Shown: positions 1,643-52,721 of the stretch, in pieces | How positions within the stretch are numbered: the stretch's first letter is position 1 | Layout of the letters: every line of letters starts with the position of its first letter | Assembly (NCBI RefSeq): GCF_030444335.1 | Contig: NZ_CP128595.1 | Coordinates: 62,001 to 126,000 of the forward strand | DNA length: 64,000 bases | From: Polaribacter huanghezhanensis | Lineage (GTDB): Bacteria; Bacteroidota; Bacteroidia; Flavobacteriales; Flavobacteriaceae | Direction of reading: 5' to 3' | Program-made: the position numbers and the translations under genes | Notes under the pieces: model-generated | The model's input: the letters and a program-made list of their open reading frames with translations, nothing else | Databases searched by the model: none | Told to the model about the DNA's origin: nothing

Positions 1643-2626
1643 TTATGTAGACATAATATCAGAAACTCTTAAAAGTTCTTGATCTATAATATGTCCACCT
1701 TTTATTGCTTCTTTAAGTTCTGTAGTAATGACTTCGTTGTCTTTTAAACCAACCATGTAATTACTTTTATTTTCTAATAATAATTCTACTGCTTTTACTC
1801 CTAATCTACTTGCTAGTACTCGATCAAAACAACTTGGAGAACCTCCTCTTTGCATATGACCCAAAACTGAAACTCTTACTTCATATTCTAGCAAATTATC
1901 TTCTACATACTTTGCTAATTCGTACACATTTTTACCAGATTTATCACCTTCAGCAACAACAACAATACTTGATGATTTTCCTGAATTTTTACTTCTTTTA
2001 AGTGATTCTAACATCCTTTCTAATCCCAAGTTTTCTTCAGGAATTAAAATCTCTTCTGCCCCTGCTCCAACGCCAGCGTTTAAAGCGATAAAACCAGCAT
2101 CTCTCCCCATCACTTCAACAAAAAATAATCTGTTGTGCGATGAAGCCGTGTCTCTTATTTTATCAATTGCTTCTACAGCTGTATTTAATGCGGTGTCGTA
2201 ACCCAACGTATGTGAAGTTCCAAAAATATCATTGTCTATAGTACCTGGAATTCCGATTACTGGAAAATTAAACTCTTCATTAAAAATCATTGCTCCAGTA
2301 AAAGACCCATCACCACCAATTACAACAAGACCGTCAATATGGTTTTTTTTTAAATGTTCAAAAGCTGTTTTTCTGCCTTCAACGGTTCTAAAATCTTTTG
2401 ATCTGGCCGTTTTAAGAATAGTACCTCCTTTATTAATAATGTTATTAACCGTTCTCGCTTTTAGTTCGATAAAATCGCCTTCAATCATTCCTTGAAAACC
2501 GCGATAAATACCAACACATTCTTTTTTATAATATGCACAAGTTCTAACAACAGCTCTTATTGCTGCATTCATTCCTGGAGAATCTCCTCCAGAAGTCATT
2601 ACTGCTATTTTTTTTATTTCTTCCAT
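1643..2626 (-). CDS. pfkA: ATP-dependent 6-phosphofructokinase
   Basis: Phosphorylates fructose 6-phosphate to fructose 1,6-bisphosphate. The 327-residue protein shows GGDSPG at 13-18, the nucleotide motif GGDGS at 104-108 (Gly after Asp, as in ATP-dependent enzymes), PGTIDND at 127-133 with catalytic Asp131, the MGRDAG motif, and GHMQRGGSPS near the C-terminal substrate site. It precedes gap by 10 bases in the same direction. The gene start at the ATG complementing 2624-2626 follows an A+T-rich 66-base gap after the sugar-kinase gene upstream on the same strand. Confidence 0.97.
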   Translation of the reverse strand: MEEIKKIAVMTSGGDSPGMNAAIRAVVRTCAYYKKECVGIYRGFQGMIEGDFIELKARTVNNIINKGGTILKTARSKDFRTVEGRKTAFEHLKKNHIDGLVVIGGDGSFTGAMIFNEEFNFPVIGIPGTIDNDIFGTSHTLGYDTALNTAVEAIDKIRDTASSHNRLFFVEVMGRDAGFIALNAGVGAGAEEILIPEENLGLERMLESLKRSKNSGKSSSIVVVAEGDKSGKNVYELAKYVEDNLLEYEVRVSVLGHMQRGGSPSCFDRVLASRLGVKAVELLLENKSNYMVGLKDNEVITTELKEAIKGGHIIDQELLRVSDIMST

Positions 2627-2692
2627 AATCGAACTTACGAAGTTAAGAAATAAAAACTACTTTTTAATAGATTTTTAAGAGTATAAAAATCA

Positions 2693-3781
2693 CTATTGAG
2701 CTTGTATAAACTCTTTTATTTTAAAGAACTGTTGGGTGATTTTTTTTACAAAAACAAATTGATTCGTTGCCCTATCTAAATTATGCTTTTGATAGGTTGT
2801 TTTAAAGTAACTATCATTGTTTAAATAATCTGTTAAAAAACGCATTCCCATAATAAAAGGCAACACTTTTATACTTATTGGCAGTAAATTTATTTCTTGC
2901 TTTGTTGCACTTTTACAAGTTTGAAAAAAACCTTCTGTGTAACTTTTAAAAAACTCGAAATTAAATCCAATTTTAGTTGTATTTATTTCATCTTCATCTG
3001 CAGTATTACAAAGCGTTCTAATTGCATCGCCGTAATCGAAATGCAAAACGCCTTGCATTACGGTATCTGTATCAATTAAACACAGCGCTTTATTTTCTTT
3101 TGAAAATAAAATATTTGAAATTTTAGTATCATTATGTGTTACTCTTAACGGTAATTTATTTTGTTGAATTGCGATATCAATTTCTTGCATCTCTTCGATA
3201 TGCTCTTCTATAAAATGAATCAATTCTTTAGATTGATTTATTTTTTTTTCTGATGCATGTTGAAGCGCTTTTTTAAATTGATGATACCGTACAGTTACAG
3301 AATGAAAATCTTCTAAAATAGTGGTGATTTTTGCACTATCAATATCTTTGGTCAATTCTAAAAACTCGCCTGTTATTTTACCCGCTTCAAAAGCAATTTG
3401 AGTATTTTCAGCTTTTAAAAACGTTACTGATTCTTCGATAAAAATGGAGGCATTCCAAAAATTACCATTTGCATCTTCATAAAAAAAAGTACCATCTTTT
3501 GCTTTTACAAAACACAATACTTTTTGTTGAATTTCTTTTTGAGGTAAATACTTTAACTTTTGCTGTAAATGATTGCTAACAAAAATTTTATTCCCTATTA
3601 ATTTTTTCGCTTTCTTAAAAACAATATTGTTTATTTTTTGTAAAACGTACTGTGGTTTTTGTATTGTCTTAATTAAAAAAGTATCATTAATATGTCCAGA
3701 ATTTAGTTCTTGGAACGATTCAAATTCAGATTGAATTTCAAATTGATTAATGATGCTTTTCAATACGTTTTCCATTACCAA
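2693..3781 (-). CDS. Aminoglycoside-phosphotransferase-fold kinase, probable sugar 1-kinase (NahK-like)
   Basis: A 362-residue protein of the APH/choline-kinase fold. The catalytic loop is HNDTKISNIL at 216-225 with Asp218 as the base, followed by LIDTDT at 235-240 carrying the metal-binding Asp. The arrangement and the final LDRATNQF region resemble N-acetylhexosamine 1-kinases and the mucin-desulfatase-like kinases rather than antibiotic kinases. Its start overlaps by 7 bases the stop of the upstream nucleotidyltransferase gene, so the two form a translationally coupled pair: a kinase making a sugar 1-phosphate and a transferase making the nucleotide sugar. The substrate is not evident from sequence. 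M1 or M3 could be the start. Confidence 0.75.
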   Translation of the reverse strand: MVMENVLKSIINQFEIQSEFESFQELNSGHINDTFLIKTIQKPQYVLQKINNIVFKKAKKLIGNKIFVSNHLQQKLKYLPQKEIQQKVLCFVKAKDGTFFYEDANGNFWNASIFIEESVTFLKAENTQIAFEAGKITGEFLELTKDIDSAKITTILEDFHSVTVRYHQFKKALQHASEKKINQSKELIHFIEEHIEEMQEIDIAIQQNKLPLRVTHNDTKISNILFSKENKALCLIDTDTVMQGVLHFDYGDAIRTLCNTADEDEINTTKIGFNFEFFKSYTEGFFQTCKSATKQEINLLPISIKVLPFIMGMRFLTDYLNNDSYFKTTYQKHNLDRATNQFVFVKKITQQFFKIKEFIQAQ

Positions 3782-23623: not shown

Positions 23624-23685
23624 CAAATAAATAGGTTTACAATTTTTAGTATCTTTATTAAAAATTGTAAGAAATATTAAGAAAA

Positions 23686-24186
23686 ATGCTAACTAACCAA
23701 GAAGCAAGTTATTTATTAGGTTTAGAAAAGGTTTTAACTAACCCGAAACAAATAATTGATTTATCTAAAAAGAAAAATAGATTGGAATTGATTTCACATC
23801 AAGATTCTGATTATGAATTTTGGGTTGAAATAACAACCAATCAAAAAATCATACTTAAAACTTCTATTCATCATTTAGAAAGTAATTCATTTATTGGTTT
23901 ATTGAGAATTGATTTTAAAGGAGGTCATCATAATCCAGCAAATTTACTTCCTACTTTACCTGATTTTCTAATCCCATACGCTAACAAGTGGTTTGACCCA
24001 ACTGAATCTCATATTCACATCTATGTTGAAGGCTATAAGCCTTTAGCTTGGGCAATACCATTAATTGATAGTGATTTTCCTGTTAAAGAAATTACTCAAG
24101 CATCAGACATATCGGATTTAATATTTAACTTTGCTCGGAGAATAAATCTAAAATCATTAATTTACATTCAGCAAGCAATACTTTGA
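23686..24186 (+). CDS. DUF6978-like protein (first gene of a two-gene accessory cassette)
   Basis: A 166-residue soluble protein that begins LTNQEASYLLGLEKVL. From memory it resembles the DUF6978 family; no enzymatic motif is visible apart from a cluster of aromatic and His residues in DFKGGHHNPANLLP and ESHIHIYVEG (residues about 84-125), which might be a binding or catalytic site. Its TGA overlaps the TTG start of the next gene by three bases, so the two are translationally coupled. The pair stands alone between unrelated housekeeping genes, typical of an accessory module such as a toxin-antitoxin or anti-phage unit. Function is not established. Confidence 0.6.
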   Translation: MLTNQEASYLLGLEKVLTNPKQIIDLSKKKNRLELISHQDSDYEFWVEITTNQKIILKTSIHHLESNSFIGLLRIDFKGGHHNPANLLPTLPDFLIPYANKWFDPTESHIHIYVEGYKPLAWAIPLIDSDFPVKEITQASDISDLIFNFARRINLKSLIYIQQAIL

Positions 24187-24965
24187 ATTGGGCAAATACA
24201 TATGTGGACGATTATTATAACTGGTTAAGGGAGAAAACCTTTATTCAAAAGGATTCTAACACTGATTGGTTTCTAATAAACACCCCTTTTGTTGGAGCAT
24301 TTAATGATACAATTGAAATTTATGCTCAAAAACACGGAAATCACTTAAAATTGAGTGACAACGGAGAAACTATGTCAAATTTAGAACTTCAGGGACTACA
24401 TATTCAAGGTTCAAAAAGACGTAGAACAATTCTAGATACAATACTCTTAAATTATGGGGTTAAATATGAAAGTGACGAATTAACATTAGAGGCAAACATT
24501 GAAAATTTTCCGCAATCAAAGCACAACTTTCTATCGGCAATAATTGAGATTAATGATTTATATGTATTATCAAAACATAATGTTGCTTCAATTTTCAAGG
24601 AAGATGTTAGGAATTATTTAGATTCTCAAAATATAATTTACACTCCTGATTTTATATCAAAAGGTGCTACAGGCTTAGAATTTAATTTTGATTTTCAAAT
24701 TGCAAAAAAGAATAAAGAGATAGTAATTAAATCATTCAACACAGTAAACAAATCAAATTTATCTACTTTTCTTTTTTCTTGGGACGATATAAAACCTGTT
24801 CGTGAAAAAATCACAAAAAAGAATGTAAATGCAATTGCGATTATAAATAATATTGATAAGGAAGTTCGAACTGAATTTTTAGATGCGCTTAAAACAAAAA
24901 GTGCTGATTTTATTCTTTGGTCTGAACGTGAATCTGAAAGAAGCAAGGAGCTTTTATCCGCATAA
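24183..24965 (+). CDS. DUF1828/DUF1829 domain protein (second gene of the cassette)
   Basis: A 260-residue protein. Residues about 25-120 fit DUF1828, with NTPF at 33-36 and the family motif LSDNGET at 57-63; residues about 150-250 fit DUF1829. The start is a TTG at 24183 overlapping the stop of the upstream gene; there is no ATG that keeps the NTPF region. A stretch FNFDFQIAKKNKEIVIKSF (167-185) has a D...K spacing distantly like a nuclease core but lacks a clear Glu, so nuclease activity is a guess only. Proteins of this pair are patchily distributed, and a role in defence or toxin-antitoxin is plausible. Confidence 0.7.
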   Translation: MNWANTYVDDYYNWLREKTFIQKDSNTDWFLINTPFVGAFNDTIEIYAQKHGNHLKLSDNGETMSNLELQGLHIQGSKRRRTILDTILLNYGVKYESDELTLEANIENFPQSKHNFLSAIIEINDLYVLSKHNVASIFKEDVRNYLDSQNIIYTPDFISKGATGLEFNFDFQIAKKNKEIVIKSFNTVNKSNLSTFLFSWDDIKPVREKITKKNVNAIAIINNIDKEVRTEFLDALKTKSADFILWSERESERSKELLSA

Positions 24966-25086
24966 ATCAATACTTAAAAGAATTGGTAAACAGCTTTTTA
25001 ATTCATGTTCGTTTTAAAAAATGCTAACGAGTTTCTTAACATTTTTATTTGCTATATTAGTTACTAAATAACATCACTAAAATATC

Positions 25087-25443
25087 ATGCTCACATCCAT
25101 CAACCCAAAATTACCGATGCGTAACAAAAAAGTGACCAGAGATTTTTACATCCAACAATTGGGTTTTAAAGAATTTGGCACAACAGATTATGAGTATTAT
25201 TTAATGCTAGAAAAAGACCAGATTCAATTGCACTTTTTTGAGTTTAAGGAGCTAAATTCAAAAGAAAATTATGGTCAAGTTTATATTAGAACAGACAATA
25301 TTGAGAATTTTTATCAAACCTTATTAGATCATAAAACGAGGATTCACCCAAACGGTTTGTTAGAAACAAAACCTTGGGGACAAAAAGAATTTTCGATGCT
25401 CGATCCTGATAAAAACCTGTTAACTTTTGGAGAAGCTATTTAG
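25087..25443 (+). CDS. VOC-family (bleomycin-resistance-like) protein
   Basis: A 118-residue single vicinal-oxygen-chelate protein: SINPKLPMRNKKVTRDFYIQQLGF at the start, IQLHFFEF (about 44-51) in the first module, and a closing EFSMLDPDKNLLTFGEA strand. This profile matches dimeric bleomycin-binding proteins, which sequester the drug without a metal, rather than glyoxalase I. Whether it confers resistance cannot be told. It stands alone in a 120-base gap on each side. Confidence 0.85.
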   Translation: MLTSINPKLPMRNKKVTRDFYIQQLGFKEFGTTDYEYYLMLEKDQIQLHFFEFKELNSKENYGQVYIRTDNIENFYQTLLDHKTRIHPNGLLETKPWGQKEFSMLDPDKNLLTFGEAI

Positions 25444-51105: not shown

Positions 51106-52606
51106 ATGGATAATATAAAGTTAGGATTGAAAGAAAATTGGAAACAATTTACATTACTGGTTGTTGTAAATGCTTTTGTTGGGGGTATGGTTGGTTTAGA
51201 ACGTTCCATTCTTCCTGAAATAGCCGAGAAAGAATTTGGATTAGTTGTAAAAACAGCAATATTATCATTCATTATTGTTTTTGGTATTACCAAAGCATTG
51301 ACCAATTATTTTGCAGGCACATTAGCAAATAAATATGGCAGAAAAAAACTATTAATACTAGGTTGGATAATTGGAACACCAATTCCTTTTATATTAATGC
51401 TTGCCCCTAATTGGAACTGGATAATAATTGCCAATATTCTATTAGGAGTTAATCAGGGTTTAGCTTGGAGTAGTACAGTTGTGATGAAAATTGATTTAGT
51501 TGGAGATAAGCAACGTGGTTTTGCAATGGGACTAAATGAATTTGCGGGTTACTTGTCGGTCGCAATTGTAGCCTTTTTAACAGGTTGGATTGCTAGTGTA
51601 CACGGTTTAAGACCCTACCCTTTCTATATTGGAATTATTCTAGTCATATTAGGTTTAATCTTTAGTATCTTTTTTATTAAAGACACTAAACATCACGTAG
51701 CTAAAGAATCAAAATCGAGTACCGTTCCTTTCTTAAAAAATATTTTTCTGGATACAACTTGGAAAAACAAAAACTTAGGCTCTGTTTCACAAGCAGGACT
51801 AGTTAACAACCTAAATGATGGAATGGTTTGGGGTGTTTTTCCATTATTATTAGCAAGTAAAAACTTCACTATAGAGCAAATAGGAATAATTACAGCAATA
51901 TATCCTGCCGTATGGGGAATAGGACAATTATTTACAGGAAAAATGGCTGATAAATATCCTAAAAAAGAAATGTTATTTTGGGGGATGCTCCTACAAGCCA
52001 TTACGCTTTTACTATTTGTTTTTGCTAATAGTATGTCTCAGTATATCATTCTATCTTCAATTTTAGGTTGGGGAACAGCAATGGTTTACCCTACTTTTTT
52101 AGCGTCTATTGCTGAAAACACCAATCCAATAGATAGAGCAAAAAGTATTGGAATTTTTAGATTATGGAGAGATTTAGGTTATGCAATTGGCGCAATATTA
52201 ACAGGTTTAATAGCAGATGCCTATAACATAAATAGTTCAATTGTATTTATTGGAGTACTTACCTTAATATCTGCAATTATCATCAAAGCAAGAATGAAAA
52301 CTAATACAAGTTGTATTTCAAAGCAAGATATTCAAAAAAAGAAAAATTATACAATCATTGATGTAAGAACTAAAGAAGAACGAGAAACTGGGTATATCGT
52401 CAATTCTATTCATATTCCAGTCAGTGAACTTGAAAGCAGAATTAAAGAACTTCCCACAGACAAACTTTATGTTACTGCTTGCGGAAAAGGGGGGTGGAAG
52501 GTCAATTAAAGCATCTGAAATATTGCAATTAAACAAGTATAATGCAATTTGGCTTTGTGGTGGAACACTAGGTTGGATAGAAAAAAAAGCTGGTAACAGT
52601 GTATAA
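51106..52606 (+). pseudogene. MFS transporter fused to a C-terminal rhodanese domain, frameshifted within a G6 run
   Basis: The intact first frame runs 51106-52509 and gives 467 residues: about 12 membrane helices (residues 15-395) of a major facilitator transporter, then a rhodanese domain that begins near 403 (DVRTKEERETGY). The active-site Cys459 of TACGKGG is reached, but the frame then shifts in GGGGGG at 52489-52494. Removing one G restores C-G-K-G-G-G-R-S and 40 further residues to a TAA at 52604-52606, giving 499 residues. Either the strain has a real or phase-variable frameshift or the sequence has a homopolymer error. The transporter portion itself is intact and may remain functional. 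Substrate is unknown; rhodanese fusion hints at thiosulfate or sulfur chemistry. Confidence 0.85.
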
Positions 52607-52721
52607 AAATAATAGCGGTTTAAGTACTAAATTCAAAGTGAGTATCTTTGCACAAAGTTTAGTAATAAATTGAGAGTTAGACCCTTAAAATCCGCTACTA
52701 TTCTTATACTAACCGTTAAAC
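52594..52721. repeat. attC-like hairpin element (imperfect inverted-repeat cassette end)
   Basis: Outer TAAC (52594-52597) and GTTAAAC (52715-52721) flank near-matching arms GTATAAAAATAATAGCGG (52601-52618) and CCGCTACTATTCTTATAC (52692-52709). Inner segments TACTAAA (52625-52631) and TTTAGTA (52658-52664) can also pair, as can CAAAG and CTTTG, so the whole 125 bases can fold into one long imperfect hairpin with unpaired bases. Left arm overlaps the stop codon of the rhodanese frame. A TATCTTTG -7 motif is present at 52643-52650. Confidence 0.6.

Follow-up and report, generated by a model that had tools for sequence, protein, structure and literature searches.

The locus examined here raises the question of what two small coupled genes do, and how they came to lie beside genes for an M28 peptidase, a glyoxalase and an FAD oxidoreductase. 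The window, that is, the whole stretch of DNA analysed, covers 64,000 nucleotides of the Polaribacter huanghezhanensis genome. The pair consists of the following features.

23686..24186, + strand: gene A, DUF6978 / PDC-M24A, 166 aa, putative effector (toxin), ATG start and TGA stop
24183..24965, + strand: gene B, DUF1828+DUF1829 / PDC-M24B, 260 aa, putative antitoxin or partner, with a C-terminal PD-(D/E)xK fold
24183..24186, + strand: TTGA, the start of B and the stop of A, a 4-base overlap giving translational coupling

Both ORFs were intact and were found where the first-pass annotation had described a coupled pair, with the TTG of B (24183-24185) lying over the TGA of A (24184-24186). The 4-base overlap was retained across nearly all Flavobacteriia copies. 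The pair is present as a single copy in the closed 2.59-Mb Flavobacteriaceae genome.

Pfam assigned A to DUF6978 (2.8e-25) and B to DUF1828 (1.6e-25, residues 34-123) plus DUF1829 (2.1e-22, residues 161-249). The LSDNGET stretch of B, read earlier as a DUF1828 motif, falls in the most conserved part of that domain (D59 in 54/54 and G61 in 51/54 diverse homologues). No NCBIfam model matched A or B. In PADLOC, A was identified as PDC-M24A (PDLC04537, E 9.3e-78, 257.8 bits, residues 1-166 of 166) and B as PDC-M24B (PDLC04539, E 4.7e-103, 342.2 bits, full length). The earlier statement that such pairs are known only as domains of unknown function was thus wrong: PDC-M24 is a candidate phage-defence system of PADLOC-DB with the same two-gene composition, and both window proteins match it over their full length. 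The PADLOC entry gives no mechanism, and our literature search found no paper mentioning PDC-M24; the cassette carriage and the structural reading described below are added by the present analysis.

The explanation we favour, with confidence little above even, is that A and B form a coupled, mobile toxin-antitoxin-like abortive-infection module in which A is the putative toxin and B its partner. As in type II toxin-antitoxin systems, the two genes are small, co-directional, coupled and nearly always together. The putative toxin comes first, which is the less common order in type II systems and counts against this explanation.

When genomes, viral contigs, phages and plasmids were searched with B and with A as seeds, about 100 non-redundant loci were recovered. 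In almost all of them, and for nearly every B whose flanks were intact, A was located directly upstream of B, in constant order and usually with a short overlap or gap, and the A-seeded searches recovered the same pair as the B-seeded ones. Where this arrangement was missing, the cause was mostly a decayed A gene or, in some viral contigs, a B piece comprising the N-terminal part only. Values of dN/dS at adequate divergence were mostly 0.04-0.12, for A and B alike. The pair is therefore more than a chance association, recurring in about 100 loci and being under purifying selection where measured. Among 400 Flavobacteriaceae genomes seven matched, one of them weakly (about 6/400, ~1.5%), and the pair was absent from the two congeners in this search. 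The closest matches in the family were 80-83% identical across genera, which together with the patchy distribution speaks for transfer. Further afield the pair ranges from Bacteroidota to Gram-positive prophages, often adjoining an integrase (Lj965, phage 37, MissF, satellite phage Javan357 and plasmid-borne prophages). On plasmids, on a satellite phage and in temperate phages of Staphylococcus, Streptococcus and Lactobacillus, its position is near an integrase or in the interval from the lysogeny repressor to the integrase; a site beside the integrase is where lysogenic-conversion and defence genes usually reside.

The ordinary neighbours in the window would suit a metabolic or housekeeping pair, but this is hardly credible, as it is contradicted by a distribution of ~1.5% of family genomes, two congeners without the pair, and carriage on phages and plasmids. 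Neither a housekeeping fold matching A or B nor conserved synteny of the pair with core genes was found, the two observations that the first-pass annotation had named as speaking against its proposal of a defence or toxin-antitoxin module. That proposal gains from the PDC-M24 match, the near-invariable pairing, the phage and plasmid carriage, the patchiness and the cassette arrays, but not from defence-island enrichment: the Flavobacteriia neighbours of the pair are mostly not defence genes, and of 132 genes adjacent to the pair at related loci only ~6 gave a PADLOC hit.

In 53 diverse homologues of A, the residues K15, R74, H81, N83, H109 and H111 were near-invariant (H81 in 53/53, H109 and H111 in 52/53 each). 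A GGHH...HIHI pattern had been pointed out earlier as a possible catalytic site; its H81, H109 and H111 hold, whereas the glycines and H82 are not conserved, and K15, R74 and N83, as conserved as the histidines, had gone unmentioned. Together the near-invariant residues appear to resemble an active site. AlphaFold2 modelled A with a pLDDT of 95.4 (alignment of 53 own and related proteins). No fold relative of A was found in the PDB or BFVD, no profile relative in the PDB, and no known toxin was alike by profile or fold. In the proposed mechanism A would be a small alpha+beta enzyme, most likely a toxin, which probably acts on RNA or nucleotides via K15, R74, H81, N83 and H109-x-H111. A divergent A subgroup with the motif RYNG..H.H.N...HIH.AT..Y was found upstream of DUF1828 genes at five loci (L070, L076, L034, L174 and L184); it is profile-related to DUF6978 (hhalign E 5e-12), often below or near the Pfam cut-off.

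The translation-blocking TumE-TumA toxin-antitoxin superfamily would make A a remote TumE (DUF6516). It shares with our pair a two-gene operon and a small alpha+beta protein without PDB relative, in which an R-x-D...H...HxH motif ends a beta-meander (PMC10584680). However, profile-profile comparison of A was not significant (hhalign E 0.21, probability 0.3%), the A variant group failed too (E 0.08), and B, a 260-aa two-domain protein, differs from the small TumA-like antitoxins in size and predicted fold, so that we regard this relationship as very unlikely. Membership of A in TumE (PF20126) was rejected on the profile comparison despite the likeness of the motifs; PF20126 was not among the 25 families listed for the hmmscan of 53 A members.

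The model of B reached a pLDDT of 93.6 (alignment of 54 own and related proteins). Residues 131-245 form a PD-(D/E)xK core in the predicted structure, alpha-beta-beta-beta-alpha-beta, and the C-terminal half gave fold matches to VC1899, Can2/Card1, AF1548, the small subunit of R.BspD6I and cap-snatching endonucleases. With the nucleases of this fold B shares the strand and helix order and the GxxG...D motif. These matches, together with the conservation of G161 (52/54), D170 (43/54, E in 7) and E179 (41/54) and the nearly invariant D42, D59, D125 and D202, are what would be expected if B were the effector, a divergent PD-(D/E)xK nuclease that cuts nucleic acid of the phage or the host, A serving as its sensor or inhibitor. 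This is the chief rival of the module with A as toxin, and we consider it possible but unlikely. B differs from the nucleases in its extra N-terminal DUF1828 domain and in lacking a conserved (D/E)xK half: position 181, where the acid is expected, holds L, V, I or F, and K183 is K in just 29/54. With this catalytic half lost, a role for B in binding, or as an antitoxin, is more probable than nuclease activity. Intact B also persists in copies with a broken A, which disagrees with B as effector. In four viral contigs (L130, L132, L133 and L141) B consists of DUF1828 without DUF1829 and no A is present; such N-terminal-only proteins are possibly phage-borne decoys or inhibitors of the module.

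A broken A beside an intact B was found at L023, L053 and L067, and the reverse, an intact A with a broken B, at L068. We kept the broken-A count as weak, partly biased evidence, because many or most loci were found through B. With A as the toxin, B would most likely bind and restrain it, serving as both restraint and sensor, and would release A upon infection. The toxicity of A, its neutralisation by B, the phage trigger and the nucleic-acid target are all inferred. Against A as the toxin stand its unlikeness to known toxins, the small number of broken-A loci, the reverse case at L068 and the non-defence neighbours.

How the pair travels was indicated by its ends in relatives. There the sequence immediately preceding A (GTTGTAAGTAATATT or GTTGCCAATAATAC) matches, fully or almost fully, the reverse complement of that immediately following B, and the right end leads into an imperfect palindrome of ~130 bases. 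Complementary ends and attC-like elements occur at the pair in L012, L016, L017, L020 and L022, with the element 10-15 bases past the B stop in L012, L016, L017 and L022. The pair's own ends are complementary in L009, L012, L016 and L017; this lapses in L020-L022. L022 (Croceivirga) carries four elements on one strand (122, 1590, 2268 and 3705), and its pair occupies 2418-3694. In L020 (Haloflavibacter) the element preceding A shares 93% identity with elements of an array, L239, in the genome that holds L012 and L030. This array consists of a gene for a 379-aa tyrosine recombinase and then same-strand ORFs, most with an element after them.

The elements were modelled with a covariance model of our own, R1, distinct from the attC model of IntegronFinder and with L012, L016 and L017 in its alignment. 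R1 has 14 base pairs, 10 of them with compensatory change, and 96% are paired (0/500 shuffles). Since single-sequence DNA folding of some elements (L009, L016, L022 left) was no better than shuffles, the structural claim rests on covariation rather than folding energies. The element has no counterpart among the Rfam families. R1 found 16 elements in the window's own genome, 88 in the congener G790 and 36 in G147, and at least one in 103/121 Flavobacteriaceae genera. Most of the 88 lie in G790:C1:2161452-2305853 (L254, L255), in long same-strand arrays near a recombinase, a superintegron-like arrangement. After GTT come seven free letters; across 23 array cassettes these agreed with the cassette's own right end at 6.5/7 positions, vs 2.6/7 between cassettes (permutation p 5e-5, n=23). 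Such own-end complementarity is the mark left by circular cassettes with a G|TT cut. In L238 and L240 (Flavobacterium) a related recombinase accompanies repeats that score only 18-36 bits with R1; these are a diverged version of the element family.

Around the window copy the corresponding features are as follows.

23664..23678, + strand: eroded left cassette end ATTGTAAGAAATATT, intact in L009 and L022 as GTTGTAAGTAATATT
24966..24980, + strand: eroded right cassette end ATCAATACTTAAAAG, intact in L009 as AATAATACTTACAAC
23637..23670, no strand: 12-base inverted repeat without mismatches, TTACAATTTTTA/TAAAAATTGTAA, with a TATCTTTA stretch between its arms, shortly upstream of A
52593..52719, + strand: solitary attC-like element (R1 57 bits, E 1e-8), flanked by an MFS/rhodanese gene and a GNAT acetyltransferase gene

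No hairpin was detected downstream of B in the window (z 0.57) and no R1 match at the pair; because of this and the eroded ends, the window copy is best read as a fixed, old cassette. An empty insertion site was sought in congeners and none was demonstrable, since they have no shared synteny around the window copy. The inverted repeat before A could be an autoregulatory operator or a promoter; a conserved operator was rejected, the repeat being absent from other copies. The 118-aa glyoxalase-like gene after the pair (25087-25443) also occurs in L014, L015, L018 and L019 (Flavobacterium) at 63-64% identity, where the other neighbours differ, and may have been transferred jointly with the pair.

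The window's own genome encodes a recombinase of 389 aa (C1:738384-739550), with a cassette, an element and then a type I restriction system behind it. The same stretch as a whole (G000:C1:738384-741198; L237 10385-13199) shows the recombinase, a two-ORF cassette with the ends GTTGTGCAAC/GTTGCACAAC, the attC-like element and the restriction system. The recombinase scored 220.8 bits with the XerA-like model NF040815 (cut-off 220) and has an extra N-terminal domain of ~95 aa, weakly HARP-like. With the IntI model TIGR02249 it stayed below the cut-off (207.6 bits against 265), and model positions 177-239 were skipped. Recombinases of the same kind lie near array heads in G790, G783 and G147, that of G790 being 67% identical to the one in the window's genome.

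The arrays share with integrons (IntI, attC and CALIN clusters) short same-strand ORFs with a covarying hairpin behind them, complementary cassette ends as a G|TT cut would leave, a recombinase at or near the head, and restriction-modification cargo (in the sample of array genes, type I restriction systems and methyltransferases). They differ in that the recombinase is XerA-like, scores below the IntI cut-off, lacks the IntI-specific segment and has the extra N-terminal domain, and in that the complementary end spans 10-14 bases, its central letters being free, whereas integrons have a 7-base RYYYAAC/GTTRRRY core. The array system appears to work like an integron but is not filed as one. For Bacteroidetes proper IntegronFinder 2.0 reported just one complete integron, that of Salinibacter (PMC9024848), and other papers name Bacteroidota as integron carriers without detail. 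An IntI1 assay that included two attC sites from a Polaribacter phage saw recombination at one or both of them (PMC9892861), so individual flavobacterial-phage sites have been seen before. Among the openly accessible journal papers searched, none was found that describes the array system.

Carriage beside integrases, on plasmids, on a satellite phage and in cassette arrays would also suit an addiction pair that stabilises a plasmid, prophage or cassette to the advantage of the mobile element itself and not directly against phages. Toxin-antitoxin pairs are common in sedentary integrons, which adds to this view. It is nevertheless improbable: isolated, selected chromosomal copies without an element or intact ends recur, and several copies have A broken and B intact. 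The abortive-infection module with A as toxin is preferred because of the PDC-M24 match, pairing, mobility, patchiness, dN/dS and the enzyme-like polar residues of A, and also because of the broken-A/intact-B loci, the PD-(D/E)xK fold of B, the cassette geometry and the type of integron cargo. Toxin-antitoxin and phage-resistance genes are typical cargo of integron cassettes (PMC8618304). In the proposed mechanism, the pair would spread in Flavobacteriaceae as a cassette of integron-like arrays, by means of attC-like hairpins and the XerA-like recombinase.

The pair is thus a compact, well-conserved candidate toxin-antitoxin or abortive-infection module, and its putative effector, with a fold that has no solved relative, could represent a new toxin family. 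Missing from the first-pass annotation were the facts that PADLOC already holds the family and that relatives carry the unit as an integron-type cassette. The carrier system matters more than the pair itself. Flavobacteriaceae probably possess a family-wide, integron-like gene-capture system, in which a XerA-like recombinase and its own attC-like hairpins shuffle cassettes, anti-phage modules among them, and standard searches, which list hardly any integrons in this group, seem to have missed this widespread system of marine and soil relatives. If the arrays are working integron-like platforms, this abundant sea and soil family would have a large cassette reservoir, one that tools built around IntI and classical attC sites overlook.
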